DNA of 35,547 bases, taken from NCBI GenBank assembly GCA_025964435.1, contig JAOPYV010000131.1:1-35547 (forward strand). The letters are read 5' to 3'. Position numbers and translations under genes: made by a program. The notes below the pieces were generated by a model. It was not told where the DNA came from, made no database searches, and saw only the letters and a list, made by a program, of their open reading frames with translations. Source of the DNA: Thermoleophilia bacterium. Lineage in GTDB: Bacteria > Actinomycetota > Thermoleophilia > Gaiellales > SKUG01. Positions 857-32,076 of this stretch are shown one piece after another (the stretch's first letter is position 1; every line of letters starts with the position of its first letter).

Positions 857-887
857 ACGAGGCCCGCGCCCGAGGTGCGGGCCTCGT
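857..887. terminator. Strong GC-rich hairpin after the tRNA, between convergent genes
   Basis: An 11-bp perfect stem (857-867 with 877-887, core GAGGCCCGC/GCGGGCCTC) encloses a 9-nt loop. It sits between the plus-strand tRNA and the 3' end of the minus-strand gene at 913-1650, so it may terminate both. Neither side carries a long T run. Confidence 0.6.
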
Positions 888-912
888 TGCGTAGAGGGAG
901 TTCCCTGCTACG

Positions 913-1650: not shown

Positions 1651-1697
1651 ATCGACCCGAACGTGACGATCCTTGAACCATTCGCCCGTCGCCCCGA

Positions 1698-1740
1698 GTG
1701 TGGCGGCTCAGTACACGTATGCGCGACTCAGCCGCCACAC
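1698..1740. repeat. Palindromic repeat, copy 1
   Basis: Arms 1698-1712 and 1726-1740 (GTGTGGCGGCT... and ...AGCCGCCACAC) are complementary over 15 nt except for C1709. They enclose the 13-nt loop 1713-1725. The element, including the following TTCGG, is repeated 62 bp downstream with one base difference. It lies between the 5' end of the minus-strand gene at 913-1650 and the 3' end of the DUF3147 gene. Confidence 0.9.
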
Positions 1741-1759
1741 TTCGGGCGGCCCGCTTGAG

Positions 1760-1802
1760 GTGTGGCGGCTGAGTACACGTATGCGCGACTCAGCCGCCAC
1801 AC
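1760..1802. repeat. Palindromic repeat, copy 2
   Basis: A perfect 15-bp inverted repeat (1760-1774 with 1788-1802) around the same 13-nt loop as copy 1, also followed by TTCGG. A 14-nt spacer (1746-1759) lies between the copies. It could be a REP-like extragenic palindrome, a protein-binding site or a terminator for the DUF3147 gene. No T run supports ordinary intrinsic termination. Confidence 0.9.
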
Positions 1803-1817
1803 TTCGGCGTCAGGCGA

Positions 1818-2168
1818 TCAGGTCACGACGCCGAGGCGCGTCAGCAACCAGGCGTAGCCGGCGTAGGCCGCGACGAGCGCCGCGCAGGCGGCACCCATCG
1901 AGATTCCGAAGCCGAGACCGCGACCGAGCAGCAGCGGCAGCGCGAGGAAGAGCACCATCGACGGCAGGACGATCCAGAGGATCGCCCACGAGAGGTCGAC
2001 GACCTGGTCGACATCGCGCGTGTCCAGCCAGAGCCAGGTCAGCGCGAGGATCGACGTGAGCGGGAGCGAGACGAGGATCGCGCCCCAGAGGCTCGAGCGA
2101 CGTCCGACCTCACTCGCGGCAACGACGAGTGCTCCCGAGAGCACGCCCTTGAGGACGAGCTGCCACAC
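1818..2168 (-). CDS. DUF3147 family small membrane protein
   Basis: A 116-residue, almost entirely hydrophobic protein with about four transmembrane segments. The pattern matches the DUF3147 family: LKGVLSGALVVAASEVGRR near the N-terminus, then SLWGAILVSLPLTSILAL, TWLWLDT, and a WAILWIVLPS segment. Function of the family is unknown; it is usually found in membranes of diverse bacteria. The start is a GTG at 2168, one nucleotide from the stop of the upstream PAP2 gene (2170), so the two are very likely cotranscribed and translationally coupled. Confidence 0.85.
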   Translation of the reverse strand: MWQLVLKGVLSGALVVAASEVGRRSSLWGAILVSLPLTSILALTWLWLDTRDVDQVVDLSWAILWIVLPSMVLFLALPLLLGRGLGFGISMGAACAALVAAYAGYAWLLTRLGVVT

Positions 2169-2169
2169 G

Positions 2170-2802
2170 TCAGCGGCGGTGCAGGATCGAGGTCGCGGCG
2201 AGCCCGGCCTGCATGCCGACCTGTGCGCCGCGCTCCACGTCGCTCGGGAAGTGTGCGCCCGCGTGGATGCGGCTCAGGCCGGTCTGGCGGGCCCACCACA
2301 TGAACTCGGTCGTGCGGGCCGGCCAGAGGCTCGAGAGCACGGAGGCGGCCGCGTAGGCAGCGCTCGTGTGCCCGGACGGGTACCCGGCGTCGTTCGGCTT
2401 CTTCCCGATCAGTTGGATCGACGGATCGACCTGGTACGGGCGCAGTCGATCGTAGCCCTGCTTGGCAACCTGGGTCCGCAGCGCGGCGGTGCCCATACCG
2501 AGCAGCATCATGCCGGTGCCGGCCCAGCCGCGCATGAAGCCGGTCGACTGGCGGTACTCCTTCGCGAAGCGCTGCCAGACGTCCCAGCCGCCGTGCTCGG
2601 AGAGCCAGGTGGTGAACTGCGCCGCCTCGGGCGAGGCGCTGGCACGGGCGTTGAGCACGCGCACCGTCTGCAGCTCGTGCGCCTCCACCACCGCGTTCGG
2701 CGGTCCGGGCAGGTTCGCCGGGCGGCGACCGTACGTGGGGAAGCCGAAGCGATCGACGCCGGTCGGCACGGGAAGCACGTGGTTGAGGCTGTGAATACTC
2801 AT
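2170..2802 (-). CDS. PAP2-superfamily phosphatase / vanadium haloperoxidase-like protein
   Basis: A 210-residue protein with the three PAP2 active-site motifs in order: KQGYDRLRPYQ (motif 1), GYPSGHTSAAY (motif 2, PSGH), and SRIHAGAHFPSDVERG (motif 3, SR-x5-H-x3-D). These bind the phosphoryl or vanadate group in acid phosphatases, lipid phosphatases and haloperoxidases. It lacks the multiple helices of membrane PAP2 phosphatases and resembles the soluble type. The ATG at 2802 is preceded by AGGTG at short spacing; the frame stays open upstream, but that extension runs into the divergent transporter gene. Its stop nearly touches the DUF3147 start. The substrate cannot be told from sequence. 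Confidence 0.88.
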   Translation of the reverse strand: MSIHSLNHVLPVPTGVDRFGFPTYGRRPANLPGPPNAVVEAHELQTVRVLNARASASPEAAQFTTWLSEHGGWDVWQRFAKEYRQSTGFMRGWAGTGMMLLGMGTAALRTQVAKQGYDRLRPYQVDPSIQLIGKKPNDAGYPSGHTSAAYAAASVLSSLWPARTTEFMWWARQTGLSRIHAGAHFPSDVERGAQVGMQAGLAATSILHRR

Positions 2803-2905
2803 GTCACCTGCACCGTCGCGATGGCGGGTGATCCCGCTCCGGGCCTGCAGCTCGGTGCTGCCTCCAGCGGCCGCGCGTGTGGCCGCATGCGTCCCGCGCG
2901 ATCCG

Positions 2906-2911
2906 TACGAT
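2906..2911 (+). promoter_or_regulatory. -10-like hexamer TACGAT for the AI-2E-family gene
   Basis: TACGAT ends 6 nt before the ATG at 2918, the same geometry as at leuS, proA and the Phd-like antitoxin gene. This suggests a leaderless transcript. It lies in the 115-bp gap between the divergent PAP2 and transporter genes. Confidence 0.5.
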
Positions 2912-2917
2912 TGGGCG

Positions 2918-4111
2918 ATGCCCAGTGATTCGAACACCAGCACCACGAGCACCCTCCACGAACCGCCGGAGCTGAGCGCCATCGCCCCGACGCGCATCTC
3001 ACTCGAGATCCCGTCGAAGGTCGTGGTCAAGGTGCTGCTGCTGATCGCCGTCTTCGCGCTCTCGGTCATGATCCTGCGCGAGCTGCAGAGCCTGCTGGTG
3101 CAGATCGCGGTCGCGGTGTTCCTCGCGGTCGCCGCCGACCCCGTCGTGCGGAAGCTCGAGCGGCGAGGCATGGGTCGCGGCAGGGCCGTGCTCTCGGTCA
3201 TGCTCGCGGCATTCGCCGCCTGTGCCATCGTCGTCGCCGTCTTCGTGCCACCGCTCGTCGAGCAGGGCGACCGCTTCATCACCGCAGCGCCGGACATCGT
3301 CGATGACGTGCGCGGCAGCAGCTGGTACCAGGACATCGACGAGCGCTTCGACGTCATCGGCAAGGCGAGCGAGCAGGCCGAGAAGCTGCCGGGCGTGGTG
3401 AGCGACCAGATCGGGTCCGTCTTCGGTGCCGTTGCCGCAGGCGTGCTCGGCACGATCACGATCCTCTTCCTCGTCGTCTTCCTGCTGCTGGGTGGCGGCC
3501 AGGTCATGCAGGGCACCGTTCGTGTCTTCCCGAAGATCGCCGAGCGGCGCTGGTGGACGATCGTCCAGGGCGCCTACTCCGGCATCGCGGCCTACGTCGG
3601 CGGCGCGATCATCATCGCGCTCTGCGGCGGCACCGTGCTGACGGTCACGGCGCTCCTGCTCGACCTGCCGTACGCGCTCCCGCTCGGCCTCTGGATGATG
3701 CTGCTGGAGATCATCCCGATGATCGGCGCCACGATCGGCGCCATCCCGGCCGTCATCGTCGCATTCGTCGCAGGTGGCACGGTCGAGGGCATCATCATGA
3801 TCCTCGTCGTGATCGTGTACCAGCAGGTCGAGAACCTCATCGTGCAGCCGAAGGTCCAGGGCCGCGCCGCGTCGCTGTCACCGTTGATCGTCTTCGTGTC
3901 GGTGCTCGTGGGCTCGCAGCTGCTCGGCGTGCTCGGCGCGCTGTTCGCCGTGCCGGTCGCCGGCGTGATCCAGATCTTCCTGCGCCAGCTCGTCGACGAC
4001 CAGGGATCGCATGACACGTCCGTTCCGAAGCTCGCGCTCGAGGGCGCACCTGAGGCACCCGACGCCGATGGCGACGGACTTCCCGGCGTCGCGAACGACC
4101 CGAGCGACTGA
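2918..4111 (+). CDS. AI-2E family transporter (PF01594-type permease)
   Basis: A 397-residue integral membrane protein. After a hydrophilic N-terminus of about 35 residues come paired helices (VVVKVLLLIAVFALSV and SLLVQIAVAVFLAVAADPVV), a third helix near residue 90, and a soluble domain of about 100 residues. Five or so helices follow, with the family hallmarks LLLDLPYALPLGLWMMLLEIIP, then IGATIGAIPAVI, VIVYQQVENLIVQPKVQG, and a final LGVLGALFAVPVAGVIQIF. Members export diverse small molecules or ions; AI-2 export is shown for only a few, so the substrate here is unknown. It is one of few plus-strand genes and is divergent from the PAP2 gene. The ATG is 6 nt after a TACGAT hexamer, with no Shine-Dalgarno. 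Confidence 0.9.
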   Translation: MPSDSNTSTTSTLHEPPELSAIAPTRISLEIPSKVVVKVLLLIAVFALSVMILRELQSLLVQIAVAVFLAVAADPVVRKLERRGMGRGRAVLSVMLAAFAACAIVVAVFVPPLVEQGDRFITAAPDIVDDVRGSSWYQDIDERFDVIGKASEQAEKLPGVVSDQIGSVFGAVAAGVLGTITILFLVVFLLLGGGQVMQGTVRVFPKIAERRWWTIVQGAYSGIAAYVGGAIIIALCGGTVLTVTALLLDLPYALPLGLWMMLLEIIPMIGATIGAIPAVIVAFVAGGTVEGIIMILVVIVYQQVENLIVQPKVQGRAASLSPLIVFVSVLVGSQLLGVLGALFAVPVAGVIQIFLRQLVDDQGSHDTSVPKLALEGAPEAPDADGDGLPGVANDPSD

Positions 4112-7326: not shown

Positions 7327-10212
7327 TCAGTTGCGCTGCGGCGCGGCGAGCAGTCGCTCGACCGACTCGATCTCCCGGCCGTAGCACGCCCAGTCGCCCT
7401 GCTTCTGGCAGGCGAGCGCTCGTGCGTAGGCAGCATCGACGTCGGTGAGGCGCTTGAGCAGCTCCTGCTGGCTCAGCCCGGCGAAGTCGCCAGCCGTCGG
7501 TGCTGGCGTGTCGCCAGCACCATCGTCCGCCGGTGCATCGCCATCGCCGGTGTCCGCGTCGTCGGCCTCATCGAGGATCTCGCCGCCGCGCTTGGCGAGC
7601 AGCTCGCGCACGGCATCCTCGAAGTCCTCGCCCCACGCCACGGTGTCGCCCAGGACGACGACCAGCCGCTGGAACTCGGGAATCTCGGCTTCCGCGTTCT
7701 GCAGGTAGACCGGCTGCACGTAGAGCAGGCTCTCCTCGATCGGCAGCACGAGCAGGTCACCGAAGATCACCGTGTTGTTGCCGGTGGTCCACTGGCGCAC
7801 CTGGTCGGAGACCTCACTGTCCTGCTTGATGCTCGCCTGCACCTGCGCGGGACCCTGCGTCAGAGTCTGCGTCGGCAGCTCCAGCGTCAGCAACTCGCCG
7901 TACTGCGTGCCGTCGCTGCGCGCGACCATGTAGGCGACCATGTTCTTCTTGCCGAGCGGCGAGAGCGGGCGCACGAGGAGGAACTCCTCCTTCGTCTCAC
8001 CGGGCAGCTTCGCAAGGATGTAGAAGGACTCCATCGGCGAGCCGCCGAGCTCGGGCACTTCCCACTGGTCCTCGCGGGCGTAGAAGTCCGCGACGTCGGC
8101 CATGTGGTAGCGGGTCCAGTACTGGGTCTGCTGCTCGAACAGCTCCTCGGGGTAGCGCAGGTGCGCGCGCAGGTCCTCGGGCATCTTGTCCATGTCGGTG
8201 AAGAGCTTCGGGAAGATGTCGCGCCACGAGCCGAGGATCGGATCCTTGTCGTCAGCCACGTACAGCGTCACGTCGCCGTCGTAGGCGTCGACCACGGCCT
8301 TCACCGAGTTGCGCGCGTAGTTCATGCCCGAGAGCGTGCCGCCGGAGCCGATCGACTCGCTGTAGGGGTAGCGATCGCTCGTCGTGTAGGCGTCGAGCAC
8401 CCAGACGATGCGGCCCTCGGTGACGACGGCGTACGGATCCGCATCGATCGTCAGGAACGGCGCCAGCTCGGTGACGCGCTCCTTGATGTTGCGGCGGAAC
8501 ATGACGCGGCTCTTGTCGGTGAGCTGGTCGGTGAAGAGGTACTTCGTGTCGCCGAGCGTGGTCGCGAAGGCGACGCGGCGCGCGAAGCTGTCGACCTTGA
8601 TGCCACCGTCGCCGGAGTACGTCGTGCGGGTCTCCTCGACCTTGGCGTCCTCCTCCGTGGCACCCGTGGCGGGCGTGACGGCGCGTGCCGACACCTCGCG
8701 CTGCTTGGTCGCGACGATCACGGCGTTGTCGGGGTTCTCGCCGAAGTAGACCTCGGGTCGATCGATCTTGATGTCCTCCTGGTCGACCGGCGCCGGAGGC
8801 AGGTCCTTGAGGATGAACTTCGGGCGACCCTGGCGCTCGGTCTCGTTCGGCCAGGCCGCGACGGCGCCGTAGCCGTGCGTGTAGACGAGGTGCTGGTTGG
8901 TCCAGCCCTGGTTGACGATCGGCGCGCTCTGCTCGAGCTCACGCACGCTCACCATCACCTGGCGATAGGCGTCGCCGACCTGGTAGCGGTCGACGTCGAC
9001 GTCGGAGAACTTGTAGTACGGGCGCAGCGCCTGCAGCTGGTTGGTCACCTTGTTCAGCTCGTCGGGGCTCCACAGGCGGATGTTGTCCGTGGTGCCGCGG
9101 TTGTCCTCGAGCAGCTGCGCCTCGGTCAGCGTCGCCTTGTCGGTGAAGTCCTTCGACGTGATCTCGTCGAGGTTGAAGGCCGAGCGCGTGTTGGCGATGT
9201 TGCCTTCGATGACCTTCTTCTCGCGTGCGTTCTCGTTCGGGTCGACGAGCACCTTCTGGACGGCGCTCGGGATGATGCCGGTGACGACGATGCTCAGGGC
9301 GACCCAGCCGATGATCGAGCCACCGACGACGCGCCAGTTCTCACGGCGGGCGAACCAGACGATGAGGCCCGCCAGCACGATGCTCGCGACGAGCATCAGC
9401 CAGTAGCCGGGGATCCGCGCGTGGGTGTCGGTCCAGCCAGCACCGGCGACGTAGCCCGTGGCGGAGGTCGCGAGGCCCCAGATCGAGAGACGGAACTGGA
9501 AGGCGGACACGAGCAGGAAGGCAGCGGCCAGTACGGACAGGTGGATGATCGCCGAGCGCGCGATGCGCGGCCCGGGCAGGTAGCGGATCACCCCGGTGGC
9601 GACGTAGACGATGCCGACGGCGATCGCCGACAGCACGAGCACGACCTGCAGCGAGCGCGCGATGAGCTCGAGCAGCGGCATCGTGAACACGTAGAAGGAG
9701 GCGTCCTTGCCGAAGTGCGGATCGGTCACGCCGAAGTCGCTGCGGCCGAGGAAGCGCAGCACCGTCTCCCAGCGCGAGCTCATGACGAGGCCGGCGATGA
9801 TGCCACCAATGACGGCGACGCCGAGCAGGATCGGCTTGAGCACGAACTGCGGCACGATCGGCTGGTCGGGCGCCTCAGGGTCGACGGGTCCCGCGAGGAA
9901 CGGCACGTACAGGTCGTTGCGTGCATTGCGACGCGCGACGATGAAGTTCGTGAACAGCAGCGCGAAGGTGAACAGGCCGAAGGCAAGGCCGAGCGCGGTT
10001 CCCCACTGCAGGCGCGTGACGAGCACGTCGCGCTGGCCGAGCTCCTGGAACCAGAGCAGGTCCACCCAGAAGCGCAGCACTGCGCCGCCGACGAGGATCA
10101 GCGGGATCACGATGGCGAGGATGCGTCCGCGCCATCGCCGGAGTGCGCCGCCTCCACTGGTTGCTGGGCGCTGGGGCCGCCGTGGCGGCATACGTCGAAC
10201 GTTGTCTTCCAT
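7327..10212 (-). CDS. UPF0182 family large membrane protein
   Basis: A 961-residue protein matching UPF0182 (COG1615), a conserved actinobacterial and cyanobacterial family of unknown function. Residues 1-30 are basic; about seven transmembrane helices lie between residues 30 and 330, beginning with [16 protein letters not shown] and the family segment [14 protein letters not shown]. The rest is a large, probably extracytoplasmic domain ([18 protein letters not shown], then [45 protein letters not shown]). The C-terminal tail is acidic ([15 protein letters not shown]) and ends in a charged helix. Length is normal for the family. The ATG at 10212 has only weak Shine-Dalgarno sequence; TAGGCT lies 8 nt upstream. 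Confidence 0.95.
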
Positions 10213-20087: not shown

Positions 20088-20091
<4 letters not shown>

Positions 20092-21197
20092 TCGTCTCGG
20101 AGGAAGGCCGGGATGTCGTAGTCGTCGTCGCTGGCCGTGGCGCCAGATCCGGTGCCCGGCGCGGGTGCCGTGCTCGGACCGCGGCCCCAGCGAGGCTCGT
20201 CGAGCGGCCGACCAGCCATCGCGCGAGCGGGGCGGTCGGTGCCCTTCTTGTCGAAGCCGGTGGCGACGACGGTGACGCGAACCTCGTCGCCCATCGACTC
20301 GTCGATGACGGCGCCGAAGATGATGTTGGCGCTGGAGTCAGCTGCGCTCGAGACGATCTCGGCTGCCTCGTTCACCTCGAACAGGCCCAGGTCGGGACCA
20401 CCCGTGATGTTCAGCAGGATGCCGGTCGCGCCTTCGACGCTGGCTTCGAGCAGCGGGCTCGAGATCGCGCTCTTGGCCGCCTCGGCTGCGCGGTTCTCGG
20501 CGCTCGCCGTGCCGATGCCCATGAGGGCGGAGCCGGCATCGCGCATGATGGTGCGCACGTCGGCGAAGTCGAGGTTGATGAGGCCCGGCACCGTGATCAG
20601 GTCGGTGATGCCCTGCACGCCCTGGCGCAGCACGTCATCGGCGACGCGGAAGGCGTCGACGATCGAGGTGTCCTTGCCGACGACCTGCAGCAGCTTGTCG
20701 TTCGGGATGACGATGAGCGTGTCGACCTTGTCCTTGAGGATCTTGGTGCCACTCTCAGCGCTCTGCATGCGCTTATTGCCCTCGAACTGGAAGGGCTTGG
20801 TGACGACGCCGACGGTGAGCGCACCGAGCTCGCGGGCGATCTCGGCGACGACGGGCGCGGCGCCGGTTCCGGTGCCACCACCTTCGCCGGCCGTGACGAA
20901 GACCATGTCAGCACCCTTGAGCGCTTCCTTGAGCTCGTCGCGACTCTCCATCGCGGCTTCCTGGCCGATCGACGGCTCCGCGCCGGCACCAAGGCCGCGC
21001 GTGAGCTTCGAACCGATGTGGATCTTCACCTGCGCGTCGCACATGAGCAGCGCCTGCGCATCGGTGTTGACCGCGATGAACTCGACCCCGCGCAGACCTG
21101 CGTCGACCATGCGGTTGACGGCATTCGTACCGCCGCCGCCGACACCGACGACCTTGATCACTGCGAGGTAGTTCTTCGAGCTGTCCTGGAGTGGCAT
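20088..21197 (-). CDS. ftsZ: Cell division protein FtsZ
   Basis: Tubulin-like GTPase that forms the Z ring. The 369-residue protein has [16 protein letters not shown] at the N-terminus, the tubulin signature [16 protein letters not shown], the T7-loop region FADVRTIM and the C-terminal-domain strand [11 protein letters not shown] linker of about 35 residues follows, ending in [13 protein letters not shown], the conserved peptide that binds FtsZ partners. The ATG at 21197 has GAGGTG about 9 nt upstream. It lies 32 bp after ftsQ and overlaps the phosphatase gene by 4 nt. Confidence 0.98.
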
Positions 21198-21229: not shown

Positions 21230-22540
21230 CTAGACAGGTGCGGCGGATACGGTGGGTGCCGTCGCATCGGTCGTCGTCTCGGGTGTGCCCTGTGCCGCCG
21301 CACTCGCGGGCATTTCCGGGGCACGCGGCGTGTTGCACGCGACGTTCGACGCGGCGCACCACACGGGCTTCGCCGGCACGGTCACGTCGATGTAGGTGAG
21401 CTCCACCTTGTCGCGGTAGCGGGCCCAGTCACGCATCAGCTCGGCAGCAACCACCTTGGTACGCAGGTTGCTCACGCCGCCGGGTCGGCCGAAGCGCACC
21501 TCGACCCCACCGACGAGCTGGCCGACCAGCTCCTTGCCCGACAGCTCGACGAGCTCGAAGTCGAGCGAGGAGGTCGCGGGAATGCTCTCGAGCAGCTGCA
21601 GTGCAGGCTCATCGCTCACGCGCACGCCGGGCGCGAGCTTCTCGCCGCGCAGCCGCACGATCGGGATACGCCCCTTCCAGTCCTCCTGCTTCGCCTTCGA
21701 CAGGATCCGCCCGTCGCGCGAGACGAGCCAGCTGTTGCCGTCGCCGAGCGCGAGCGCCAAGGGCTGGTACTCGGTCACGTGCAGCGACAGGCCGCCGGGG
21801 AAGTGGCTCTCGACGCGCACCGATTCGACGAACGGCAGCTCCTGGATGGTCCGCTGCATCGCGTCGGCATCGACCGTATAGATCGTCGAGTCCTCGAGCA
21901 GCGTGTCGACCCGCGCACGGACCTCGAGGTCGGAGACCGAGCTCGCACCCATGACCTCGACGTGACGGATCCGGAAGGCGCTCGACCCGGGCAGCACGAT
22001 CCAACCGGTGACCAGCGCCACGACGGCGACGCCCGCGACGGCGAACCGGATGCGGCGTCGCAGCAGCTGGCTGCGGCGCGCACGGCGGCCGAACTCCTCC
22101 GGGCTCAGCCGGCGCGCATGACGACCGTCGATGTCAGTGCCGATCGGACGCGACTTCTCCCGTGCAGCCGCATTGCCAGGAGCACTGCCAGCCGCGCGCT
22201 CGGTGCGAGGTCGCACCAGCAGCGATCCTCCGGGGACTGCTCGCAGGACACCGCGGCCGATGCCGCCGAAGATGCCGAGCACCTCGCGCGCGAAGCCGGT
22301 GAGCGCGGCGTTGATCGCGGACGGGATGGCGCGCACCCTGCGCGCTATCCAGCCGAAGAGGCCCTCGTGTCGCTCGCGGACGGCAGCTGCGGGCGTGCGC
22401 AGCTGCTGCGGCGCTGCCTTCCGCACGCGCTTCGCAGTCGTCGCGGTGCGCGCGGGCTGGGCGACACGCTGGCGCTCGCGGTCACGGCGCAGGCGCTCGC
22501 GGCGCTCCTGCGCGGCATCGTTGCGAGGCGCGTTGCTCAT
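21230..22540 (-). CDS. ftsQ: Cell division protein FtsQ (POTRA-containing)
   Basis: Bitopic divisome protein linking cytoplasmic and periplasmic division factors. Of 436 residues, the first 165 or so form a long basic, Arg/Ala-rich cytoplasmic region. One transmembrane helix follows (FAVAGVAVVALVTGWIVL), then the POTRA domain (FRIRHVEVMGASSVSDLEVR), and the FtsQ/DivIB domain with PFVESVRVESHFPGGLSLHV, EYQPLALA and WLVSRDGRIL. The C-terminal 45 residues are a low-complexity Ala/Pro/Thr tail. The ATG at 22540 overlaps the murG-murC-murB stop by 4 nt. Both the N-terminal extension and the tail are longer than in most FtsQ proteins. Confidence 0.94.
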   Translation of the reverse strand: MSNAPRNDAAQERRERLRRDRERQRVAQPARTATTAKRVRKAAPQQLRTPAAAVRERHEGLFGWIARRVRAIPSAINAALTGFAREVLGIFGGIGRGVLRAVPGGSLLVRPRTERAAGSAPGNAAAREKSRPIGTDIDGRHARRLSPEEFGRRARRSQLLRRRIRFAVAGVAVVALVTGWIVLPGSSAFRIRHVEVMGASSVSDLEVRARVDTLLEDSTIYTVDADAMQRTIQELPFVESVRVESHFPGGLSLHVTEYQPLALALGDGNSWLVSRDGRILSKAKQEDWKGRIPIVRLRGEKLAPGVRVSDEPALQLLESIPATSSLDFELVELSGKELVGQLVGGVEVRFGRPGGVSNLRTKVVAAELMRDWARYRDKVELTYIDVTVPAKPVWCAASNVACNTPRAPEMPASAAAQGTPETTTDATAPTVSAAPV

Positions 22541-25500
22541 GCACCCACCGTGCCTGGCAGGTCGTCGTGCAGCGGTCGATAGCCCTCGGGCGCGAGCAGG
22601 TGCACCTCGGTGTGCAGCTCGACGCCGAACTGCGTCGACACCTCGTGCCGCGCCAGCTCGATCAGGTCGAGGATGTCCTGCGTCGCGGCGTCCTCGTCGT
22701 TCTCGATGAAGTTGCCGTGCTTGGGTGAGATCCGTGCGCCGCCGATGCGGTGCCCCTTCAGCCCGGCGCGTTCGATGAGCGCTCCTGCGCCGTCGCCTTC
22801 GGCCGGGTTCTGGAAGACGCTACCGAAGGAGCGCGCGGCGCGCGGCTGCGAATCGCTGCGGCGTCCCTGCATCTCCTTGACGCGCGCCTTGATCGCATCC
22901 GGCTCGTCGTGTCCGAGCTGCAGCTCGACGCGTGACACGACGCTCTCCCACGTGATGTTCGTGTGGCGGTAGCGCATGTCGAGGTCGCCGGGCACCACGT
23001 CGCGTGCACCCGATGCCGAGACCAGCCGCGCCCGTGTCACGACGTCGCGCATCTCGCCGCCGTATGCGCCCGCATTCATCTTGAGCGCCCCACCGGCGGT
23101 TCCGGGGATCGCGCAGGCGAACTCGAATCCAGCGAGGCCCGCGTCGCGGCAGAGCCGGACCGCGGCAGCGAGCGAGGCGCCGCCACCGAGCACGACCGTG
23201 CCGGCGTCGGCATCGACGTCGATGCGCGCCAGGTCATCGACCAGTCGCACCGCGAGGCCCGAGAATCCGGCGTCGTCGACGAGCGAGTTGGAGCCCAGGC
23301 CGATCATCGCGACCGGCAGCTTCCGCGTGGCAGCCCATGCGAGCGCCTCCGTCAGCTGACGCTCGGTGCCGACCTTGGCGAAGTACTTGGCAGCGCCGCC
23401 GGTGCCGATCGTGGTGAAGCGGTGCAGCGGCACGTCGCGCTCGAGCCATTCGGGCGCAGGCTCCGCAGGGCCGTCGTCGCCCGTCGATTCGAGCGCCGCG
23501 ACCAGGCGAGGGGCGAGCTGCGTCACGCTGCCCGCGCCCATCGTGATGAGGACGTCGTGTTCCATGGATTCGCCGAGGATGGTACCGGTGTCGCCCGTCG
23601 CAGGATCGTCGATCCCGCGTCCGGCGTACACGTCGGGCGAGCGCTCCGCGAGCGCGTCGGCGATCAGCCGCTCCGAGATTCCCTCGACCGGCGCTTCGCG
23701 CGCGCCGTAGATCGGCAGCACCCACGCACGGTCGGCGGAGCCCAACGCCGTGGCGAAATCGCTCCACAGCGCCTCGGTGCGCGAGTACAGGTGCGGCTGG
23801 AATGCGATGAGCACGCGTCCGCCGCGCGCGTCGGCCGTGGTGCGCGCTGCCTGGATCGTCGCCGCGACCTCGGTCGGGTGATGCGCATAGTCGTCGATCA
23901 CGAGCACGCCGCGCTGCTCGCCCGCGATCTCGAAGCGACGGCCGACCCCGGTGAAGTCGGCCAGCGCGTCGAGTGCCTGCTCCAGCTCGACGCCGAACTC
24001 GCGCAGCGCGCAGGCAGCGCCCAATGCATTGAGCGCATTGTGCCGGCCGGGCAGCGCGAGGCGCGCGGCGACCGCATCGACCTGCACCGCATCCTGGCCG
24101 AAGCGCACGACCCGCCCACTGGCGTGGCGCACGAGACGATCGAGGGCGGCACCGGGTCCGGCCACGAGCACGTCGGGCTTCTGGTCGCGCACCCACTGGG
24201 CGAACAGCGCCTCGACCTCGTCGTCGGTGGCGTAGGTGTGGTGGTGGTCACGCTCGATGTTCGTCACCACCGCCACCTTCGGCGTCAGGTGCAACAGCGT
24301 GCGATCGGATTCATCGCCCTCGACGAAGAACGGGCCGACGCCGACGCGCACGTTCGTCGGCACGCCGTCCTCGGTGATGCCGGGAATCGTCGCGCCCACC
24401 GCGACTGCGGGATCCAGCCCGAGCCGCACGCCCGCGTGGGCGAGCATGCCGGTGGTCGTGGACTTGCCGTGCGCGCCGGCGACCACGACGGAATCGCGCA
24501 GCCGCGTCAGCTCACCGAGCAACTCGCCGCGCAGCACGACGCGGCAGCCGAGCTCGCGGGCGGCGACCAGCTCGGGGTGGTCGGTCGGCAGCGCGCTCGA
24601 GACGACGACGTCCATGCCCGCGACGACGTGTGCAGGGTCATGGCCGATCGCGACCGGCACGCCGGCCGAGCGTACGAGCCGCGCGTACTCGGAATCGGCC
24701 TGGTCGCAGCCGTCGACATCGGCGCCCCAGGCCGTGCAGATCTGGGCGAGCGCGCTGACGCCGGCGCCACCCGCACCGACGAAGTGGATGCGACGTCCGT
24801 CGAGCGGTCGCGCCGCGTCGACGTCGCCACGTCGCAGGCGGCGCCGCGCGCGGATCCCCCCGGAGTGGGCGACGACGGTCGCGATCCGAGCTGCGGCGTC
24901 GGGCCGCGCCAACGCACCGATCCGGCGCGCGAGTTGCTCACGGCGCAGGTCTCCGGACGGCCCGAGCAGGTCACAGACGATGCCACGCAGGTGTGGCCCC
25001 GTCAGTCCCGCATCCTCGAGCAGCACGGCAGCGTCGCGGTCTGCGAAGTAACGGGCGTTCTTGGTCTGGTGGTCGGCAGTGACGTTCGGACTCGGAATGA
25101 GCACCGCGGCGCGCCGCGTGGCGGCCAGCTCGAAGACGCTGCCGCCGGGCCGGCTGATGACGAGGTCCGCCGCTGCGAGCAGTGCGGGCATGTCGTTGCA
25201 GTACTCGATCAGTCGATAGCGCTCCGAGGCGGGCGCGACCGCAGCGAGCTCCGCGAAGTCCCGCCGCCCGGTGACGTGCAGCACCCAGATCGGCTCGCCG
25301 CCCGCACGCGGGTCGCTGTCACTCCCCCACGCCTCCCACGTCGCCTCGTTGAGCTTGGTCGCGCCGCCGGAGCCGCCGACCACGGCGAGCACGCGTGCCT
25401 CGCGCGGCAGCTCCAGCTGCTCGCGCGCCGTAGGCCCATCGATCGTGAAGAACTCCGGGGTGACGGGCCGGCCGACGACCTCCTGGCGCAGCCGCAGCTG

Positions 25501-26001
25501 CGGAAGTGGATACGCAGTCATCAGCCGACGTGCGACGCGACCGGAGATTCGATTGGCGAGCCCGAGGTGGGCATCCGCTTCCGTGGCGACGACGGGGACG
25601 CGCAGCAGCCGCGCCGCGAGGGCGGCTGGCGCGCTGACGAACCCGCCAGCAGCGAGCAGGACATCAGGCCGACGTCGACGGACGATCCGCAGGCACATGC
25701 CAACGGCGCCGATCGCCTGGAAGATCGCGCGCAGCTGCGCCACGCCCGGACGACGCGGCAGGCCGCCGATCGCGAAGAGGTCGGACTCGTAGCCACGCTC
25801 GGCCAGCAGGTCGGCATCGCGTCGACCGCTGCTCGCGGCGAAGGCGACGTCGTGACCTGCCGCGCGCAGCTCGTCAGCGACGGCGAGCGCCGGTGCGAGG
25901 TGCCCGGCGGTTCCGCCCGCGGCGACCAGCACCCGCAGGTGCGGGCTCGTCGGTACCGTCGTGTTCGGGTGACGTGTGGTCATCTTCGTCGTCGAACGCA
26001 T
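22537..26001 (-). CDS. murG-murC-murB: Trifunctional MurG-MurC-MurB fusion protein
   Basis: One uninterrupted 1154-residue frame. MurG (about 21-380): GGTAGH at 29, EADAHLGLANR at 141, VVGGSGGA at 207, RPGGSVFELA at 284; makes lipid II from lipid I. MurC (about 403-838): VGAGGAGVSALA at 408, ATP loop AGAHGKSTTTG at 508, NIERDHHHTY at 581, GRHNALNAL at 652, YAHHPTEV at 705; adds L-Ala to UDP-MurNAc. MurB (about 856-1154): GLGSNSLV at 901, PGTAGGALKMNAGAYGGEM at 966, FGSVFQNP at 1059 with Ser1061, and Glu1132 in TEVHLL; reduces enolpyruvate to UDP-MurNAc. Linkers are short (about 20 residues). ATG at 26001 has GAGGA 5 nt upstream; the start overlaps ftsW by 128 nt. All three parts look intact. 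Confidence 0.95.
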   Translation of the reverse strand: MRSTTKMTTRHPNTTVPTSPHLRVLVAAGGTAGHLAPALAVADELRAAGHDVAFAASSGRRDADLLAERGYESDLFAIGGLPRRPGVAQLRAIFQAIGAVGMCLRIVRRRRPDVLLAAGGFVSAPAALAARLLRVPVVATEADAHLGLANRISGRVARRLMTAYPLPQLRLRQEVVGRPVTPEFFTIDGPTAREQLELPREARVLAVVGGSGGATKLNEATWEAWGSDSDPRAGGEPIWVLHVTGRRDFAELAAVAPASERYRLIEYCNDMPALLAAADLVISRPGGSVFELAATRRAAVLIPSPNVTADHQTKNARYFADRDAAVLLEDAGLTGPHLRGIVCDLLGPSGDLRREQLARRIGALARPDAAARIATVVAHSGGIRARRRLRRGDVDAARPLDGRRIHFVGAGGAGVSALAQICTAWGADVDGCDQADSEYARLVRSAGVPVAIGHDPAHVVAGMDVVVSSALPTDHPELVAARELGCRVVLRGELLGELTRLRDSVVVAGAHGKSTTTGMLAHAGVRLGLDPAVAVGATIPGITEDGVPTNVRVGVGPFFVEGDESDRTLLHLTPKVAVVTNIERDHHHTYATDDEVEALFAQWVRDQKPDVLVAGPGAALDRLVRHASGRVVRFGQDAVQVDAVAARLALPGRHNALNALGAACALREFGVELEQALDALADFTGVGRRFEIAGEQRGVLVIDDYAHHPTEVAATIQAARTTADARGGRVLIAFQPHLYSRTEALWSDFATALGSADRAWVLPIYGAREAPVEGISERLIADALAERSPDVYAGRGIDDPATGDTGTILGESMEHDVLITMGAGSVTQLAPRLVAALESTGDDGPAEPAPEWLERDVPLHRFTTIGTGGAAKYFAKVGTERQLTEALAWAATRKLPVAMIGLGSNSLVDDAGFSGLAVRLVDDLARIDVDADAGTVVLGGGASLAAAVRLCRDAGLAGFEFACAIPGTAGGALKMNAGAYGGEMRDVVTRARLVSASGARDVVPGDLDMRYRHTNITWESVVSRVELQLGHDEPDAIKARVKEMQGRRSDSQPRAARSFGSVFQNPAEGDGAGALIERAGLKGHRIGGARISPKHGNFIENDEDAATQDILDLIELARHEVSTQFGVELHTEVHLLAPEGYRPLHDDLPGTVGA

Positions 26002-27346
26002 GCGCGTCCTCGAAATCCTCGTCGTAGTCGTCGATGTCGAATGCCTCGACCTCGGGTTGTTCGATGGTGAACGAGCGTGGGGGCCGGCGCTCAGTCGCGA
26101 TGTTCGCGAGCAGCCCGAGCGAGACGAGGGTCATGATAAGTGAGCTGCCACCGTAGCTGACCAGCGGCAGCGGAATACCTGTCAGCGGCATCACACCGGT
26201 GACGCCGGCGATGTTGACGGCCGCCTGCCCGACCACCATCGCCGTGATGCCGGCTGCGAGCAGCGCGCTGAAGCGAGTGCGTGCCCGCATCGCGATGCGC
26301 GTGCCGACGGCGGCCAGCACGCTGAACGAGCCGAGCACCATGATCACGCCGAAGAAGCCGAGCTCCTCCACGGTGATCGCGAAGATCATGTCGGTGTGCG
26401 CTTCGGGCAGGAAGGTGATCTTCTGCACGCTGTGTCCCAGCCCCACGCCGAACGGACCGCCCGAACCGATCGCGATGAGCGCCTGCACGAGCTGGTAGCC
26501 ACCCGCCTCGGGGTTGGCCCACGGATCGACGAAGGCGAAGAAGCGCTGGCGGCGATAGTCCTCGGTGACGATCGAGAGGATGACCAGCGCGAGTGCCGGT
26601 CCGATCGTGCGCCACAGGACGTCCCAGCGCGTTCCCGCGAGCACGTAGAGCACGACCGTCGATGCGCCGACCACCAGCCCTGACCCAAGGTCGCTCTGGA
26701 CGCCGACGAGCACGCCCGCGAGCCCGAGTCCGACGCCGCCGGGCGACCGGACGAAGTCGCGCATCCAATGCACGGGCGGCGCGGTCCGCGACAGGTGCGC
26801 TGCGATCATCGCGATGACCGCCAGCTTGAGCGGCTCCGACGGCTGGAGCTGGAAGAAGCCGAGGTTGATCCAACGCGTCGCCCCGTTGCCGTCCACACCG
26901 ACGCCCGGGATCATGACGGCCACGACGAGCGCGACGCAGATCCAGACCATCGGCCGGGCCAGGCGACGCACCAGGTCGAGCGGCATGCGCATCGCCACCC
27001 ACATGGCGCACAACCCGACGAAGCCGTAGATCGCCTGCTTCTGCAGCAGCGCCCACTGGTAGTTGCCGCGCAGCAGCTCCTCACCGCTCGAGGCGCTCGC
27101 CACCATCACGAGGCCGAACACGTAGAGGGTCAGCGCAACGAGGACGACGAGCCTGCGGCGGCCGAGCGCAGCCGTCACTGGCGAGACCTTCGGCAGCTCC
27201 AGGGCGATCGGCGCGACGGGCGCGGCCTTCGCCGCTGCCTTGGTCGCTGCGCGCGCACTCGCGGCGGCGTCCGCCTTCCGGCGATCGTCTCGTTGTGCAC
27301 GTCGTGTCGCAGCCCCCGCCATCATGGGTGAGTTTGACGCCGACAC
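25874..27346 (-). CDS. ftsW: Septal peptidoglycan glycosyltransferase FtsW (SEDS family)
   Basis: Polymerises lipid II at the division site. About 490 residues with ten hydrophobic segments. SEDS signatures are seen: a GATRWINLGFFQLQPSEPLKL segment, LGSGLVVGAS, RRQRFFAFVDPWANPEAGGYQ, GLGHSVQKITFLPEAHTD, FAITVEELGF and the final PLTGIPLPLVSYGGSSL. The N-terminus is a basic Ala-rich tail of about 60 residues. The C-terminal tail is first strongly acidic and then basic. GTG at 27346 is chosen because AGGAG lies 6 nt upstream; ATG at 27325 is an alternative. The tail-coding end overlaps murG-murC-murB by 128 nt in another frame. Confidence 0.94.
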   Translation of the reverse strand: MSASNSPMMAGAATRRAQRDDRRKADAAASARAATKAAAKAAPVAPIALELPKVSPVTAALGRRRLVVLVALTLYVFGLVMVASASSGEELLRGNYQWALLQKQAIYGFVGLCAMWVAMRMPLDLVRRLARPMVWICVALVVAVMIPGVGVDGNGATRWINLGFFQLQPSEPLKLAVIAMIAAHLSRTAPPVHWMRDFVRSPGGVGLGLAGVLVGVQSDLGSGLVVGASTVVLYVLAGTRWDVLWRTIGPALALVILSIVTEDYRRQRFFAFVDPWANPEAGGYQLVQALIAIGSGGPFGVGLGHSVQKITFLPEAHTDMIFAITVEELGFFGVIMVLGSFSVLAAVGTRIAMRARTRFSALLAAGITAMVVGQAAVNIAGVTGVMPLTGIPLPLVSYGGSSLIMTLVSLGLLANIATERRPPRSFTIEQPEVEAFDIDDYDEDFEDAHAFDDEDDHTSPEHDGTDEPAPAGAGRRGRNRRAPRTGARRR

Positions 27347-27431
27347 CGGACTCTCCTGCACCGGATCCTGCAATCCGCTGACGTCCGACGTCGCAGCGCG
27401 GACGACGACGCCGAAGTTCAGCCTCGGGTGA

Positions 27432-27950
27432 TCAGCCCGGCAGGTAGTGCTGGAGGTTGAACAGCTCCGCCTCGGCACGTCGCGCGTAGGACGCCACGCC
27501 CTTGTCGTCGAGCCCTTCCTTGATGAAGGAGCCCTGGCCCGCGGCAAGCTCGCCGAGGCGCCACTTCATCTGGCCCACCATGGAATCCGGCGTGTAGTCG
27601 TTGAGGTACTTCTGCGCGTCCTGCACGATGTCGTCGGACCCGCGGGTATTGAGCTTGTTCCCGACCATGGCCGGCCGCATCTCCATGTTGGGGTAGCCGC
27701 GCGCTGCCTTCAGCGTCTGCTGGGCGAAGGACGCCTCGCGCAGCGCCATGCTCGTGTGGTACGAGCGCCCGATCGGGGTCCAGCTCTTCTGCGCGGCATG
27801 CCAGGAATCCGTCGACAGGCCGATCCGCGCATCCGCGAGCTGCGCGAGCTCCCGCACCTTCGTCGCCGGGCTGGATGCGGCGTTGTTGATGATGCTGTTG
27901 AGCTTGGCACCCTGCTGCGTGAAGGTGTGCTTGAGAATGTTGATTCCCAT
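27432..27950 (-). CDS. Unrecognised 172-residue protein in the murD slot
   Basis: I do not recognise the family. The protein starts MGINILKHTFTQQGAKLNSI, is soluble, largely helical by pattern, and rich in Asn, Gln, Lys and Ser in contrast to its Ala/Arg-rich neighbours. No signal peptide, membrane helix or enzymatic motif is visible. The ATG at 27950 has GGGGGA 7 nt upstream. It lies between mraY and ftsW, where murD usually is, with a 100-bp gap before it that may hold a promoter and an 85-bp gap after it. It shows no MurD features (no ATP loop, no ligase motifs) and is too short. Its different composition suggests insertion into the cluster. Confidence 0.75.
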   Translation of the reverse strand: MGINILKHTFTQQGAKLNSIINNAASSPATKVRELAQLADARIGLSTDSWHAAQKSWTPIGRSYHTSMALREASFAQQTLKAARGYPNMEMRPAMVGNKLNTRGSDDIVQDAQKYLNDYTPDSMVGQMKWRLGELAAGQGSFIKEGLDDKGVASYARRAEAELFNLQHYLPG

Positions 27951-28050
27951 GGTGTATCCCCCGGTTCGATGGCCCCTGTTCCCCACCGGGCTATCGCAGG
28001 GCGGGATCGAATCGTTGCAGCGGCAAACGATGCGACGGGAAACCACGGCC

Positions 28051-29085
28051 CTAGTGCGTGCGGAACCAGATCGTGAAGCCGGTCGCCGAGAAGAGCGACG
28101 TGACGATCGCGAAGCGGATCATCACCTGGGTCTCGCTCCAGCCCTTGAGCTCGAAGTGGTGGTGGATCGGTGCCATCAGGAAGAGCCGGCGCGGCGTGCC
28201 GGTGATCCGCCGCGACGCCTTGAAGACGACCTTCTGCAGCATCACGCTCAGGCCCTCGACGACGAAGATGCCGCCGATGATGACGAGCAGCAGCTCGACC
28301 TTGAGCACCACGGCGAGCGCCGCGAGTGCGCCACCCATCGCGAGTGAGCCGGTGTCGCCCATGAAGACCTTGGCCGGATAGGCGTTCCACCACAGGAAGC
28401 CGATCAGCGCACCGCCGAGCGACGCACAGAAGACGGCGACGTCGAGCGCGCCGTGCGAGCCGAGCGTCAGCGGCGGGATCGACGAGAGCTCGCGGTCCCA
28501 GAGGATGAAGGCGATCGCGGTGAAGGCGCTCAGCGAGATGACGACGGTCGTCGCCGCCAGCCCATCCAGCCCGTCGGCCAGGTTGACGGTGTTCGACGTC
28601 CCCGCGAGCACGAAGAACAGCAGGATGTACCAGCCCCAGCCGATGTCGAACTTCATCTCCGTGAAGGGGATCTCGAGCACGGTCGAGATGTCGAGCAGGT
28701 TGTGGCTGGACCAGCCCAGGAAGATCGTGATCAGCGCGAGCAACACCATCTTGGCCGTGCCCGTGATGCCGAGCGACCGCTTGTTGACGACCTTCATCGC
28801 GTCGTCCCAGAAGCCCATCAGCGCGCACATCATCGTCGTGGTCCACACGACCATGCCGAAGTTGGTGTGCTCGCGACCGACGAACCAGTACGGGATGCTC
28901 ATGCCGAACAGGATCAGCAGGCCGCCCATCGTCGGCGTGCCCTTCTTCGCGACGGCATGACCCTGCGGCCCGTCCTCGCGGAACTCCTGGCCGAACTCAC
29001 GGCGCTGCGCCCAGCGGATGAAGAGCGGGCCGAGCAGGATGACGATCATGGAGGCGAGCACGCCTGCGAGCAGCATTCGGGTCAT
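28051..29085 (-). CDS. mraY: Phospho-N-acetylmuramoyl-pentapeptide-transferase MraY
   Basis: Membrane enzyme that transfers phospho-MurNAc-pentapeptide to undecaprenyl phosphate, forming lipid I. 344 residues with about ten helices. Key motifs are DGPQGHAVAKKGTPTMGG, GFWDDAMKVV (catalytic Asp pair), NTVNLADGLDGLA, NAYPAKVFMGDTGSLAMGG and LMAPIHHHFELKGWSE, which is the HHH loop. The ATG at 29085 overlaps the murF stop by 4 nt (ATGA), so translation is coupled. The 100-bp gap after it and the unknown gene break the usual mraY-murD junction. Confidence 0.98.
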   Translation of the reverse strand: MTRMLLAGVLASMIVILLGPLFIRWAQRREFGQEFREDGPQGHAVAKKGTPTMGGLLILFGMSIPYWFVGREHTNFGMVVWTTTMMCALMGFWDDAMKVVNKRSLGITGTAKMVLLALITIFLGWSSHNLLDISTVLEIPFTEMKFDIGWGWYILLFFVLAGTSNTVNLADGLDGLAATTVVISLSAFTAIAFILWDRELSSIPPLTLGSHGALDVAVFCASLGGALIGFLWWNAYPAKVFMGDTGSLAMGGALAALAVVLKVELLLVIIGGIFVVEGLSVMLQKVVFKASRRITGTPRRLFLMAPIHHHFELKGWSETQVMIRFAIVTSLFSATGFTIWFRTH

Positions 29086-30578
29086 GCGTCAGCACCGCGC
29101 AATCCGTGGTGGTGGGCCAAGGCCATGGCGAACAGGCCGAGCCCGGAGGAATTCGATGCCTTCACGAGCACGACGTCGTTGGGCGCGCTCCACTCGTCGA
29201 CGGCGGTCAACGCGGCATCGACGGACTGGTAGCGATGCGCCTTCGTGCCGCGCGTACGCTTCCAGCCGTCGGCCAGGGCGTCGGCATCGGAGTTGTCGCC
29301 GATCACGACCAGCGTGTCGACCTGCTCGCGAGCTGCAGCGTAGGCACCGACGGAGGTGTGCAGGCGCTTGGAGGTCGAACCCAGCTCAGCCATGCGCCCG
29401 AGCACCGCAACACGGCGCGCGGTCGTCGGTGATGCCGCGAGCTCGTCGAGCGCGGCGGTGACCGATTCGGGATTCGCGTTGTAGGCGTCGTCGATGACCG
29501 TGCCGCCGCCCGCGAGCGCGTGGCGATCACCACGACCGCTGGTGAAGACGGTGCTGCCATCGCTCGAGCCGATCTGCAACGCATCCTCGGCGAGCAGCGA
29601 CGCCGAGCCCGTCAGCGAGACGACGGCGGCAGCTGCGGCCGCCAGGTTGCGTGCGTGGTGCAGGCCGTGGACCGGCAGCGAGAATGGTCGCTCCTCGCCC
29701 ATCAGGTCGATCGTGCCGGCAATGCCCGTCTCCGTGCGGCCGACGCTCGTGACGAGCACCGCGGAATCCTCGGCCTCGTCCTCGCCCGCGCCGAAGGGCA
29801 GCAGTCGATCCGGCACGCGCGCGGCAGCTTCGACGAGCTCATCCTGGTTGCCCGGGAAGATGCCGACGCCGCCGCTCCACGTGTGTGCGAGCAGCTCGGC
29901 CTTGGCGGCGACGATCGCATCGCGTGAGCCGAGCAGCTCGAGGTGCGCCGTGCCGGCGGTGGTGACGATGCCGATGTCGGGATCCGCGATGTCGCACAGC
30001 CATGCGATCTGGCCGGCGCCGCGCATCCCCATCTCGCAGATGACGACGTCGACGTCCGGCCCTGCACTGAGCAGGGTCAGCGGCACGCCGATCTCGTTGT
30101 TCCAATTCGCATGCGACGCGACGACGCGCACGCCGGAACGCTCCAGGAGCGCGCGCAGGATGTCCTTCGTGCTCGTCTTGCCGCTCGACCCGGTGATGCC
30201 GACGACGCGCCACGGTGAGCGGCGACGCCAGGCGCGCGCCAGTCGGCCGAGCGCGGTCGCGCCATCACAGTCGGAGGCGACGAGCACCGGGCCGTGCTCG
30301 GCAGCGGCGGCGAGCAGCTCGTCCCACTGGGCGTCCTCGATCTCGAGGTCGGTCCCAGCAAGCACCGCAACGGCGCCGCGCCGGAAGGCTTCCTGCGCGT
30401 GCTCGATGCCATGCGTACGTGAGCCGAGCAGCGCGACGAACACGCTGCCGGGCTGCACCAGGCGCGTGTCGATGGTGACGTGCGCCACCTCGGTGGCGGC
30501 GAGCTGGGCATCGTCACCGACGGGTCCGTAGACCACGGTGCCGAGTGCCTCGACGATGTCGAGCAGCGTCCAGGTCAT
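29082..30578 (-). CDS. murF: UDP-MurNAc-tripeptide--D-Ala-D-Ala ligase MurF
   Basis: Cytoplasmic Mur ligase that adds D-Ala-D-Ala to UDP-MurNAc-tripeptide. About 498 residues in three domains: an N-terminal UDP-binding part (TIDTRLVQPGSVFVAL), the ATPase domain with GITGSSGKTSTKDIL, NWNNEIGVPLTLL and ICEMGMRGAGQI, and a C-terminal domain with IDDAYNANPESV and VLGRMAELG. The ATG at 30578 lies 4 nt after the murE stop, and the gene overlaps mraY by 4 nt. No Shine-Dalgarno is obvious, consistent with coupling to murE. Confidence 0.97.
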   Translation of the reverse strand: MTWTLLDIVEALGTVVYGPVGDDAQLAATEVAHVTIDTRLVQPGSVFVALLGSRTHGIEHAQEAFRRGAVAVLAGTDLEIEDAQWDELLAAAAEHGPVLVASDCDGATALGRLARAWRRRSPWRVVGITGSSGKTSTKDILRALLERSGVRVVASHANWNNEIGVPLTLLSAGPDVDVVICEMGMRGAGQIAWLCDIADPDIGIVTTAGTAHLELLGSRDAIVAAKAELLAHTWSGGVGIFPGNQDELVEAAARVPDRLLPFGAGEDEAEDSAVLVTSVGRTETGIAGTIDLMGEERPFSLPVHGLHHARNLAAAAAAVVSLTGSASLLAEDALQIGSSDGSTVFTSGRGDRHALAGGGTVIDDAYNANPESVTAALDELAASPTTARRVAVLGRMAELGSTSKRLHTSVGAYAAAREQVDTLVVIGDNSDADALADGWKRTRGTKAHRYQSVDAALTAVDEWSAPNDVVLVKASNSSGLGLFAMALAHHHGLRGADA

Positions 30579-30582
30579 CAGG

Positions 30583-32076
30583 TCAGGAGACGCCGGCGGC
30601 CTCGAGGGCTTCACGGGCAACGGTAACATCGTCGAACGGGACCGTCTCGTCCGCGAACGTCTGCCCCTGTTCATGCCCCTTGCCGGCGATCAGCACGACG
30701 TCGCCCGGCTTGGCCAGGCTGATCGCGTGCTGGATGGCGGCGCGACGGTCGACGAGCTCCACGAGCTCGGCCTCACCGCGCATGCCACGCTTGATCTCGG
30801 CGATGATCGCCGTGGGATCCTCGCTGCGCGGGTTGTCGCTCGTGACGATCGCGACGTCGGCGCCATTGGAGGCAGCACGACCCATGAGCGGTCGCTTCGA
30901 GCGGTCGCGGTCGCCGCCGCAGCCGAACACGACGATCAGCTCGCGATCACAGAACTCGCGGGCACTGGTCAGCACCTGCTCGAGCGAATCGGGCGTATGT
31001 GCGTAGTCGACGAGCACGGTGAACGCCTGGCCGGCCTCGACCGGCTCGAAGCGTCCACGCACGCCGGGCACGCTGTCGAGCCCCGCCTGCACGTCGTCGG
31101 GGGTCAGGCCCGCGAGCAGCGCCATCGTGGCAGCCGTCAGCACGTTCTCGACGTTGAAGCGGCCGCGCAGCCGCGACCTGAGCGCGAAGTCGCCGACCGG
31201 GCTCTCGACCTTGATCGAGGCGCCATCGGCGGTCAGCGCGAAGCTGGCGCTGACCGACGCGCGGTTCATCTCACGCAGCGTCCAGCCCCAGACGGGCACG
31301 TCGCCACGCTCGGCGTGGACCAGCTCGTCGAAGAGGCGGCTGCCCCACTCGTCGTCGCAGTTCACGGCGGCGGGGAAGAACTGGCCTTCCGGGCCGGGCT
31401 CGGTGAACAGCAGTCGCTTGGCCTGGTAGTAGGCCTCGAAAGAGCGGTGATAGTCGAGGTGGTCACGCGTCAGGTTCGTGAAGCCGACCGCGGCGTAGCG
31501 CACGTTGCGCGACCGGTGCTGGTCCAGCGCGTGGCTCGAGATCTCGATCGCTGCGGCGTCGTCGCCGGCGCTGACCATCTCGTAGAGCAGGCCGTGCAGG
31601 TCGAGCGCCTCGGGCGTCGTGTGGCTGGCCACACGCTCCTCGCCGCCAACCGTGATGCCGGTCGTGCCGATCACGCCGGCCTGCTTGCCAGCTGCCTCGA
31701 GCATGGCGCGCAGCAGGAAGGTGGTCGTCGTCTTGCCGTTGGTGCCGGTCACGCCGAACACCGGCAGGCGCCGCGACGGCTGCTCGAAGAAGGCATCGGA
31801 GATCGGACCCATCGCACCACGGACCGTCTCGACCTGCACCTGGAGGATGTCGACCTCCGGCAGGTGGCGCTCGACGACGAGCGCGACGGCGCCGTTGGCG
31901 ACCGCCTCCGCAGCGAAGTCATGTCCGTCGAGGCTGGCACCGGGCACGCAGAAGAACAGCGCGCCGGGATGGATGCGGCGCGTATCCATTGCCACGTTCG
32001 ACACGTTGACGCCGGTGGCGTCCCCGTGGAGCGTCACGTTGGGCAGCGCTTCGATGATGTCGGAAAGCTGGGGCAC
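30583..32076 (-). CDS. murE: UDP-MurNAc-dipeptide--diaminopimelate ligase MurE
   Basis: Cytoplasmic Mur ligase that adds the third amino acid of the stem peptide. The 497-residue protein has DTRRIHPGALFFCVPG, the ATP loop GVTGTNGKTTTTFLL, the dipeptide region ASHTTPEALDL, SSHALDQHR and the DNPR motif in TSDNPRSEDP, which in this family marks meso-diaminopimelate as substrate (lysine enzymes differ). The start is GTG at 32076 with no Shine-Dalgarno; TAGGAT is 9 nt upstream. It is the first dcw gene of this cluster and is divergent from the plus-strand gene at 32253. ftsI, ftsL, rsmH and mraZ are not upstream of it in the window. Confidence 0.97.
   Translation of the reverse strand: MPQLSDIIEALPNVTLHGDATGVNVSNVAMDTRRIHPGALFFCVPGASLDGHDFAAEAVANGAVALVVERHLPEVDILQVQVETVRGAMGPISDAFFEQPSRRLPVFGVTGTNGKTTTTFLLRAMLEAAGKQAGVIGTTGITVGGEERVASHTTPEALDLHGLLYEMVSAGDDAAAIEISSHALDQHRSRNVRYAAVGFTNLTRDHLDYHRSFEAYYQAKRLLFTEPGPEGQFFPAAVNCDDEWGSRLFDELVHAERGDVPVWGWTLREMNRASVSASFALTADGASIKVESPVGDFALRSRLRGRFNVENVLTAATMALLAGLTPDDVQAGLDSVPGVRGRFEPVEAGQAFTVLVDYAHTPDSLEQVLTSAREFCDRELIVVFGCGGDRDRSKRPLMGRAASNGADVAIVTSDNPRSEDPTAIIAEIKRGMRGEAELVELVDRRAAIQHAISLAKPGDVVLIAGKGHEQGQTFADETVPFDDVTVAREALEAAGVS

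Follow-up and report, generated by a model that had tools for sequence, protein, structure and literature searches.

Proteins that join two enzymes of the Mur pathway in one chain are known from published work (PMC4803751, PMC4929429), and two of them are close counterparts of the gene described here, an open reading frame (ORF) encoding MurG, MurC and MurB as a single polypeptide on a 35,547-nucleotide stretch of Thermoleophilia bacterium DNA (contig JAOPYV010000131.1, positions 1 to 35,547; hereafter the window). The first is the fusion of Verrucomicrobium spinosum, in which MurC forms the N-terminal and MurB the C-terminal part of a single chain; MurC likewise precedes MurB in the window protein. 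The stretch Met1-Gly477 of the V. spinosum chain was expressed as its MurC part. This fusion complements E. coli murB and murC mutants, its MurB activity was undetected in vitro, and its type has been reported only from specific Verrucomicrobia lineages (PMC4803751, Naqvi et al. 2016). The second, from the actinomycete C. gilvus, is a MurG/MurC fusion with the same order and from the same phylum as the window protein, but is a murG/murC pair without MurB and was not biochemically characterised in the paper that depicts it (PMC4929429 Fig. 3, Laddomada et al. 2016). More distant likenesses are the MurE-MurF fusion of Bordetella pertussis (PMC6420597) and other bacteria (PMC4929429), with a linker of about 20 residues described for MurE-MurF (PMC4929429), and the Chlamydia MurC-Ddl fusion (cited in PMC4803751); these also place Mur-pathway enzymes in one chain, but they combine different enzyme pairs and hold two enzymes only. 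The window protein resembles the V. spinosum type in that MurB follows MurC uninterrupted and no separate copies were found, and differs from it in that murG is a separate gene there and the phylum is another. It is also a MurG-MurC fusion, with both in one frame and no stop between. No published three-way Mur fusion was found in the open-access literature.

The ORF lies on the minus strand, begins with an ATG at 26001, ends with a TGA at 22539-22537 and has no internal stop. An earlier note, written from the DNA letters without database searches, had placed the fusion at 22537-26001 with no strand given, and had described three complete enzymes with their key motifs and linkers of about 20 residues. 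These points hold: the coordinates are right, NCBIfam and Pfam profiles match MurG, MurC and MurB in the single chain over nearly the whole length of each model, the listed motifs were found in all three domains, and the linkers, at 27 and 19 residues by hidden Markov model boundaries, are close to the claimed length. The gene is thus confirmed as a genuine three-way fusion of MurG, MurC and MurB. Domain limits below are those of the NCBIfam profile matches (TIGR01133, TIGR01082, NF010480, TIGR00179), with Pfam in agreement; pLDDT is the predicted local distance difference test score of AlphaFold2.

22537..26001, minus strand (26001 to 22537): murG-murC-murB fusion ORF, 1154 residues in one frame
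24874..25935, minus strand: MurG domain, GT28 fold, residues 23-376, by profiles and structure alignment; pLDDT mostly above 85
24793..24873, minus strand: linker 1, residues 377-403, a helical extension of MurG and then a loop; pLDDT about 71-72 at residues 381-400
23503..24792, minus strand: MurC domain, residues 404-833, by profiles and structure alignment
23446..23502, minus strand: linker 2, residues 834-852, with a net loss of 52 nucleotides relative to the unfused relative G001; pLDDT below 50 at residues 841-847
22594..23445, minus strand: MurB domain, residues 853-1136; closest solved relative 1HSK

Direct support for the fusion comes from a second species of the same genus, Thermoleophilia bacterium isolate RYN_234 (JAOPYS010000187.1; G003), an independent metagenome-assembled genome (MAG). 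Its MurG (from residue 123), MurC and MurB occupy one uninterrupted frame, open over positions 3-3146, whose product is about 72% identical to the window protein, and every gap in the alignment of the two is made of whole codons. Ratios of nonsynonymous to synonymous substitution (dN/dS, Nei-Gojobori) between them are about 0.38 for MurG, 0.28 for MurC and 0.27 for MurB; purifying selection acts on all three domains. Because the three-domain frame has been kept at this divergence with low dN/dS, chance is excluded, and a frameshift or mis-join at a junction, which the earlier note had named as grounds for refutation, is excluded likewise, since both junctions are open in the same frame in G003. 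The window is drawn from a fragmented MAG (G000; 213 contigs, 88% complete), which might favour an origin of either junction, or of both, in faulty assembly or sequencing. Such an artefact is nonetheless scarcely conceivable: G003, whose protein diverges by about 28%, shares both joins, its indels come in multiples of codons and purifying selection is seen throughout, and it is not credible that two independent errors would each have restored the frame at these very positions; assembly error is ruled out by G003. The window's genome, 88% complete as it is, yielded no further murC or murB, and its sole MurB_C match and sole MurC-type match lie within the fusion ORF; a search for separate copies had been suggested in the earlier note. 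Its remaining Mur-ligase matches fall on the window's MurE and MurF and on a MurD-like gene of contig 15.

The MurC domain scores 367.8 bits on TIGR01082, above the cut-off and over model positions 1-448 of 449, with the motifs GAGGAG, P-loop AGAHGKSTTTG, VEGDESD, NIERDHH, GRRFE, DDYAHHPTE and QPHLYSRT present, and the MurB domain is above both cut-offs (NF010480, 284.4 bits; TIGR00179, 192.4 bits) and keeps PGTAGG, the catalytic S1061 of GSVFQNP and E1132 (the Glu of HTEV) in alignment to 1HSK. The MurG domain reaches 202.8 bits on TIGR01133 (model positions 7-352 of 353, residues 23-376), below the equivalog cut-off of 250 bits; both GT28 halves, PF03033 and PF04101, are above cut-off. On the same model, the unfused MurGs of five relatives at order level reach 224-244 bits, and a partial MurG from the same genus 189, so the low score is a trait of the lineage rather than a mark of decay, and the gene order ftsW-murG-murC supports the identity of the domain. 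Of the catalytic and UDP-GlcNAc-binding residues, H34 of GGTAGH, GGSxGA, E291 and Q312 (equivalents of E269 and Q288) are kept, and the HEQN of E. coli reads TEAD here (window residues 140-143), with E141 inside it. Each domain aligns along its length to solved structures (MurG to 1F0K, MurC to 7BVA and 1GQQ with conserved motifs, MurB to 1HSK). That one domain is catalytically dead, leaving the fusion as a relic or a regulatory protein, is very improbable: the MurG score and the missing HEQN could be taken that way, as could the undetected MurB activity of the V. spinosum fusion in vitro (PMC4803751), but the low score and the loss of HEQN are common to unfused MurGs of the order, the other catalytic residues are present, and the genome yielded no second murB or murC. 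A decayed MurG was considered separately and ruled out, the unfused MurGs of the order sharing both the low score and a TEAD-like motif. Across most of the order this position reads T/S/M-EAD or similar, versus HEQN-like in the other Actinomycetota sampled, a lineage-specific change near the active site.

The survey took in 61 relatives, 399 class-level and 397 phylum-level genomes, 758 distinct genomes in all. Among the matches listed, which comprise the best 150 or so and could miss a divergent three-way fusion that had broken up into several matches, the three-way form was found beyond the window's genome only in G003. The earlier note's expectation that such a fusion would be unusual is therefore upheld, the form being confined among these matches to the window's genus. 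Two-way fusions at the same junctions, each with only one of the two open, were established by locus reading in the same class or phylum. MurC-MurB fusions occur in seven genomes of three other Thermoleophilia genera (G156, G145; G398, G281; G247, G370, G389; loci L088, L090, L087, L095, L099, L105, L159), and MurG-MurC fusions occur in two other lineages, one genome of the class (G199) and one of the phylum (G533; loci L089, L113). As two-way fusions recur at each of them, both junctions are fusion-prone, and the three-way form combines them. It is real and rare, and it extends a type of fusion known in pairs rather than constituting a new system. Many further candidates suggested by long open frames (about 1050-1200 residues around MurG or MurB) were rejected as overlapping high-GC frames with the genes in different frames, and full-length matches in G513, G511, G694 and G707 were rejected as three-way fusions because stops separate all three genes.

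The ancestral arrangement from which the fusion arose is evident in the order. Reading the loci of the 47 other genomes of the order in which murG, murC and murB lie in a single locus showed the three genes to be separate and identically ordered in all 47. The gap from the end of one domain to the start of the next has a median of 17 nucleotides, and two of these genomes have larger insertions. The domain order of the fusion, being copied from the ancestral gene order murG-murC-murB, is uninformative on design. In the same genus, G001 has separate murC and murB that overlap in GTGACTGA, where GTG starts murB and TGA ends murC; its contig ends inside MurG, so the comparison covers the murC/murB junction only. 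Relative to G001, the net loss at the murC/murB junction is 52 nucleotides in G000 and 67 in G003, each a multiple of three plus one, with the result that the murC stop and the murB start are gone and murB is in the murC frame. A MurB tree groups G000 with the unfused G001 (95/88), whereas seven concatenated proteins, of which all three species have six, group G000 with the fused G003 (92.6/93). As the two disagree, one fusion event, two events or a later split in G001 are all possible histories. Tight packing is broken in G025, where about 3.1 kb is inserted between murG and murC (L056 1792-4888, reverse strand of locus), and in G011, where about 0.8 kb is inserted between murC and murB (L043 3101-3944, reverse strand of locus). 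In G037, a genome of 5 contigs, the MurB match falls in two pieces in different frames (L065 2900-3741), which looks like a frameshift, true or due to sequencing error.

The linkers have coding-type codon-position GC in both G000 and G003, yet are only 50% identical in each case. For the fold, AlphaFold2 was run on a 31-sequence alignment that included unfused same-frame relatives with their stops read through; an alignment of single-domain relatives was dropped, as it misplaced MurG and MurC fragments onto the MurB part. Over the whole chain the mean pLDDT is 88.4 and the predicted template modelling score (pTM) is 0.57, with MurG, MurC and MurB confidently predicted, dips at both linkers and the C-terminal helix of MurG continuing into linker 1. 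The relative placement of the domains is without confidence, as expected of tethered modules, and the model suggests three tethered enzymes with no evident channel between them.

Taken from the sequence comparisons, the most probable account is that the ORF encodes a trifunctional Mur enzyme that arose through the accidental joining of three tightly packed neighbouring genes of the dcw (division and cell wall) cluster. Loss of a stop between overlapping genes would suffice to create such a fusion, and selection for a new function would not be needed. A single protein of about 120 kDa would be translated from the murG start, its MurG domain making lipid II on the membrane face while MurC and MurB, tethered close by, would catalyse their normal soluble reactions. 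The flexible linkers would fix a 1:1:1 stoichiometry without a MurG-MurC channel. The protein thus most likely carries out its three ordinary reactions through domains that are joined but act independently. In the pathway MurC directly follows MurB, uridine diphosphate N-acetylmuramic acid (UDP-MurNAc) passing from MurB to MurC, and a local hand-over is therefore conceivable for this pair only; MurG acts only after MurD, MurE, MurF and MraY and cannot hand intermediates directly to MurC or take them from it. One-way channelling through all three domains is unlikely, as the earlier note had also held.

A selected scaffold is a less likely origin, in which the fusion was favoured by bringing MurB and MurC to the MurG/FtsW site at the membrane and limiting the diffusion of intermediates. 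Independent recurrence of fusions at these two junctions in the phylum would fit such selection, but the same recurrence would be expected if stops between overlapping genes were lost neutrally. The domain order only repeats the ancestral gene order, and a position next to ftsW is usual in dcw clusters. Both linkers show low conservation, at 50% identity, and low confidence in the model, and no firm mutual placement of the domains emerges from AlphaFold2 (pTM 0.57). The scaffold idea, which the earlier note had raised as a possible reading, is plausible and compatible with the data, but the data do not demonstrate it; it draws on MurG-scaffold work in other bacteria (PMC6420597) rather than on any feature of the ORF. 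More speculative, and improbable, is an integrated precursor-synthesis machine in which MurG would serve as the membrane anchor of MurB and MurC, and lipid II output would be coupled through the tether to entry into the UDP-MurNAc pathway; if this were so, the first and last cytoplasmic steps would be regulated together. Whether Mur enzymes form a physical complex in the cell is a standing question, raised to explain the failure of Mur inhibitors in vivo (PMC6420597, PMC4929429), and a natural MurG-MurC-MurB chain is a ready-made construct for structural work, for comparing tethered with split enzymes and for the Mur-complex hypothesis. The existence of the fusion suggests that a permanent 1:1:1 linkage can be borne by three essential enzymes of cell-wall synthesis, and that the close packing of dcw genes gives rise to fusions time and again; the precursor pathway itself is unchanged by the fusion.

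Separate proteins made from internal starts were the other ground for refutation named in the earlier note. At the murG/murC junction of G000 there is no in-frame ATG, GTG or TTG from codon 365 to the start of the MurC domain, and in G003 a GTG stands just before MurC. The murC/murB junction has a GTG at codon 857 in G000 and, four codons earlier in the alignment, an ATG just before MurB in G003. No start codon is common to the two species at either junction, and no Shine-Dalgarno sequence is evident at the candidate internal starts. It is rather unlikely that one ORF serves to give several products, with MurC and/or MurB made from internal starts or the chain cut at its linkers so that the working enzymes are separate: the start codons at the MurB edge in both species and before MurC in G003 would allow this, and linker 2 is predicted to be disordered, but the junction starts are not shared, G000 lacks one ahead of MurC, and a ribosome that begins at murG must make the full chain because no stop intervenes. 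Some extra free MurB from internal initiation is possible.

Several observations weigh against a single trifunctional protein. These same GTG and ATG codons leave room for internal initiation, and other dcw starts in this genome show little Shine-Dalgarno sequence, which makes its absence at internal sites weak evidence. The contig of G003 begins within MurG, leaving the 5' end of murG and the N-terminus unseen there, and the source MAG, at 88% completeness, does not strictly exclude an extra murC or murB copy elsewhere. Finally, TEAD replaces the HEQN of E. coli in MurG lineage-wide, and MurG activity is predicted only.

The fusion lies between ftsW (before) and ftsQ (after), as is ordinary for dcw clusters. 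Its neighbours are as follows.

20088..21197, minus strand: ftsZ, by profile match
21230..22540, minus strand: ftsQ (POTRA_1), its ATG overlapping the fusion stop (ATGA)
25874..27547, minus strand: ftsW, its C-terminal tail overlapping the start of the fusion ORF
28051..29085, minus strand: mraY, by profile match
29082..30674, minus strand: murF, by profile match
30583..32076, minus strand: murE

The overlap between the ftsW tail and the murG start is about 110-130 nucleotides in G000 (25874-26001) and in G001 (L033, about 7991-8103), unusually long for two essential genes. In addition, murD is absent from its usual slot between mraY and ftsW (window 27154-28051), with the same gap in G001 (L033) and in G004 of the same family (L036), and a MurD-like gene with a divergent N-terminal part is found on another contig of the window's genome (C15, 8075-9190; L167).
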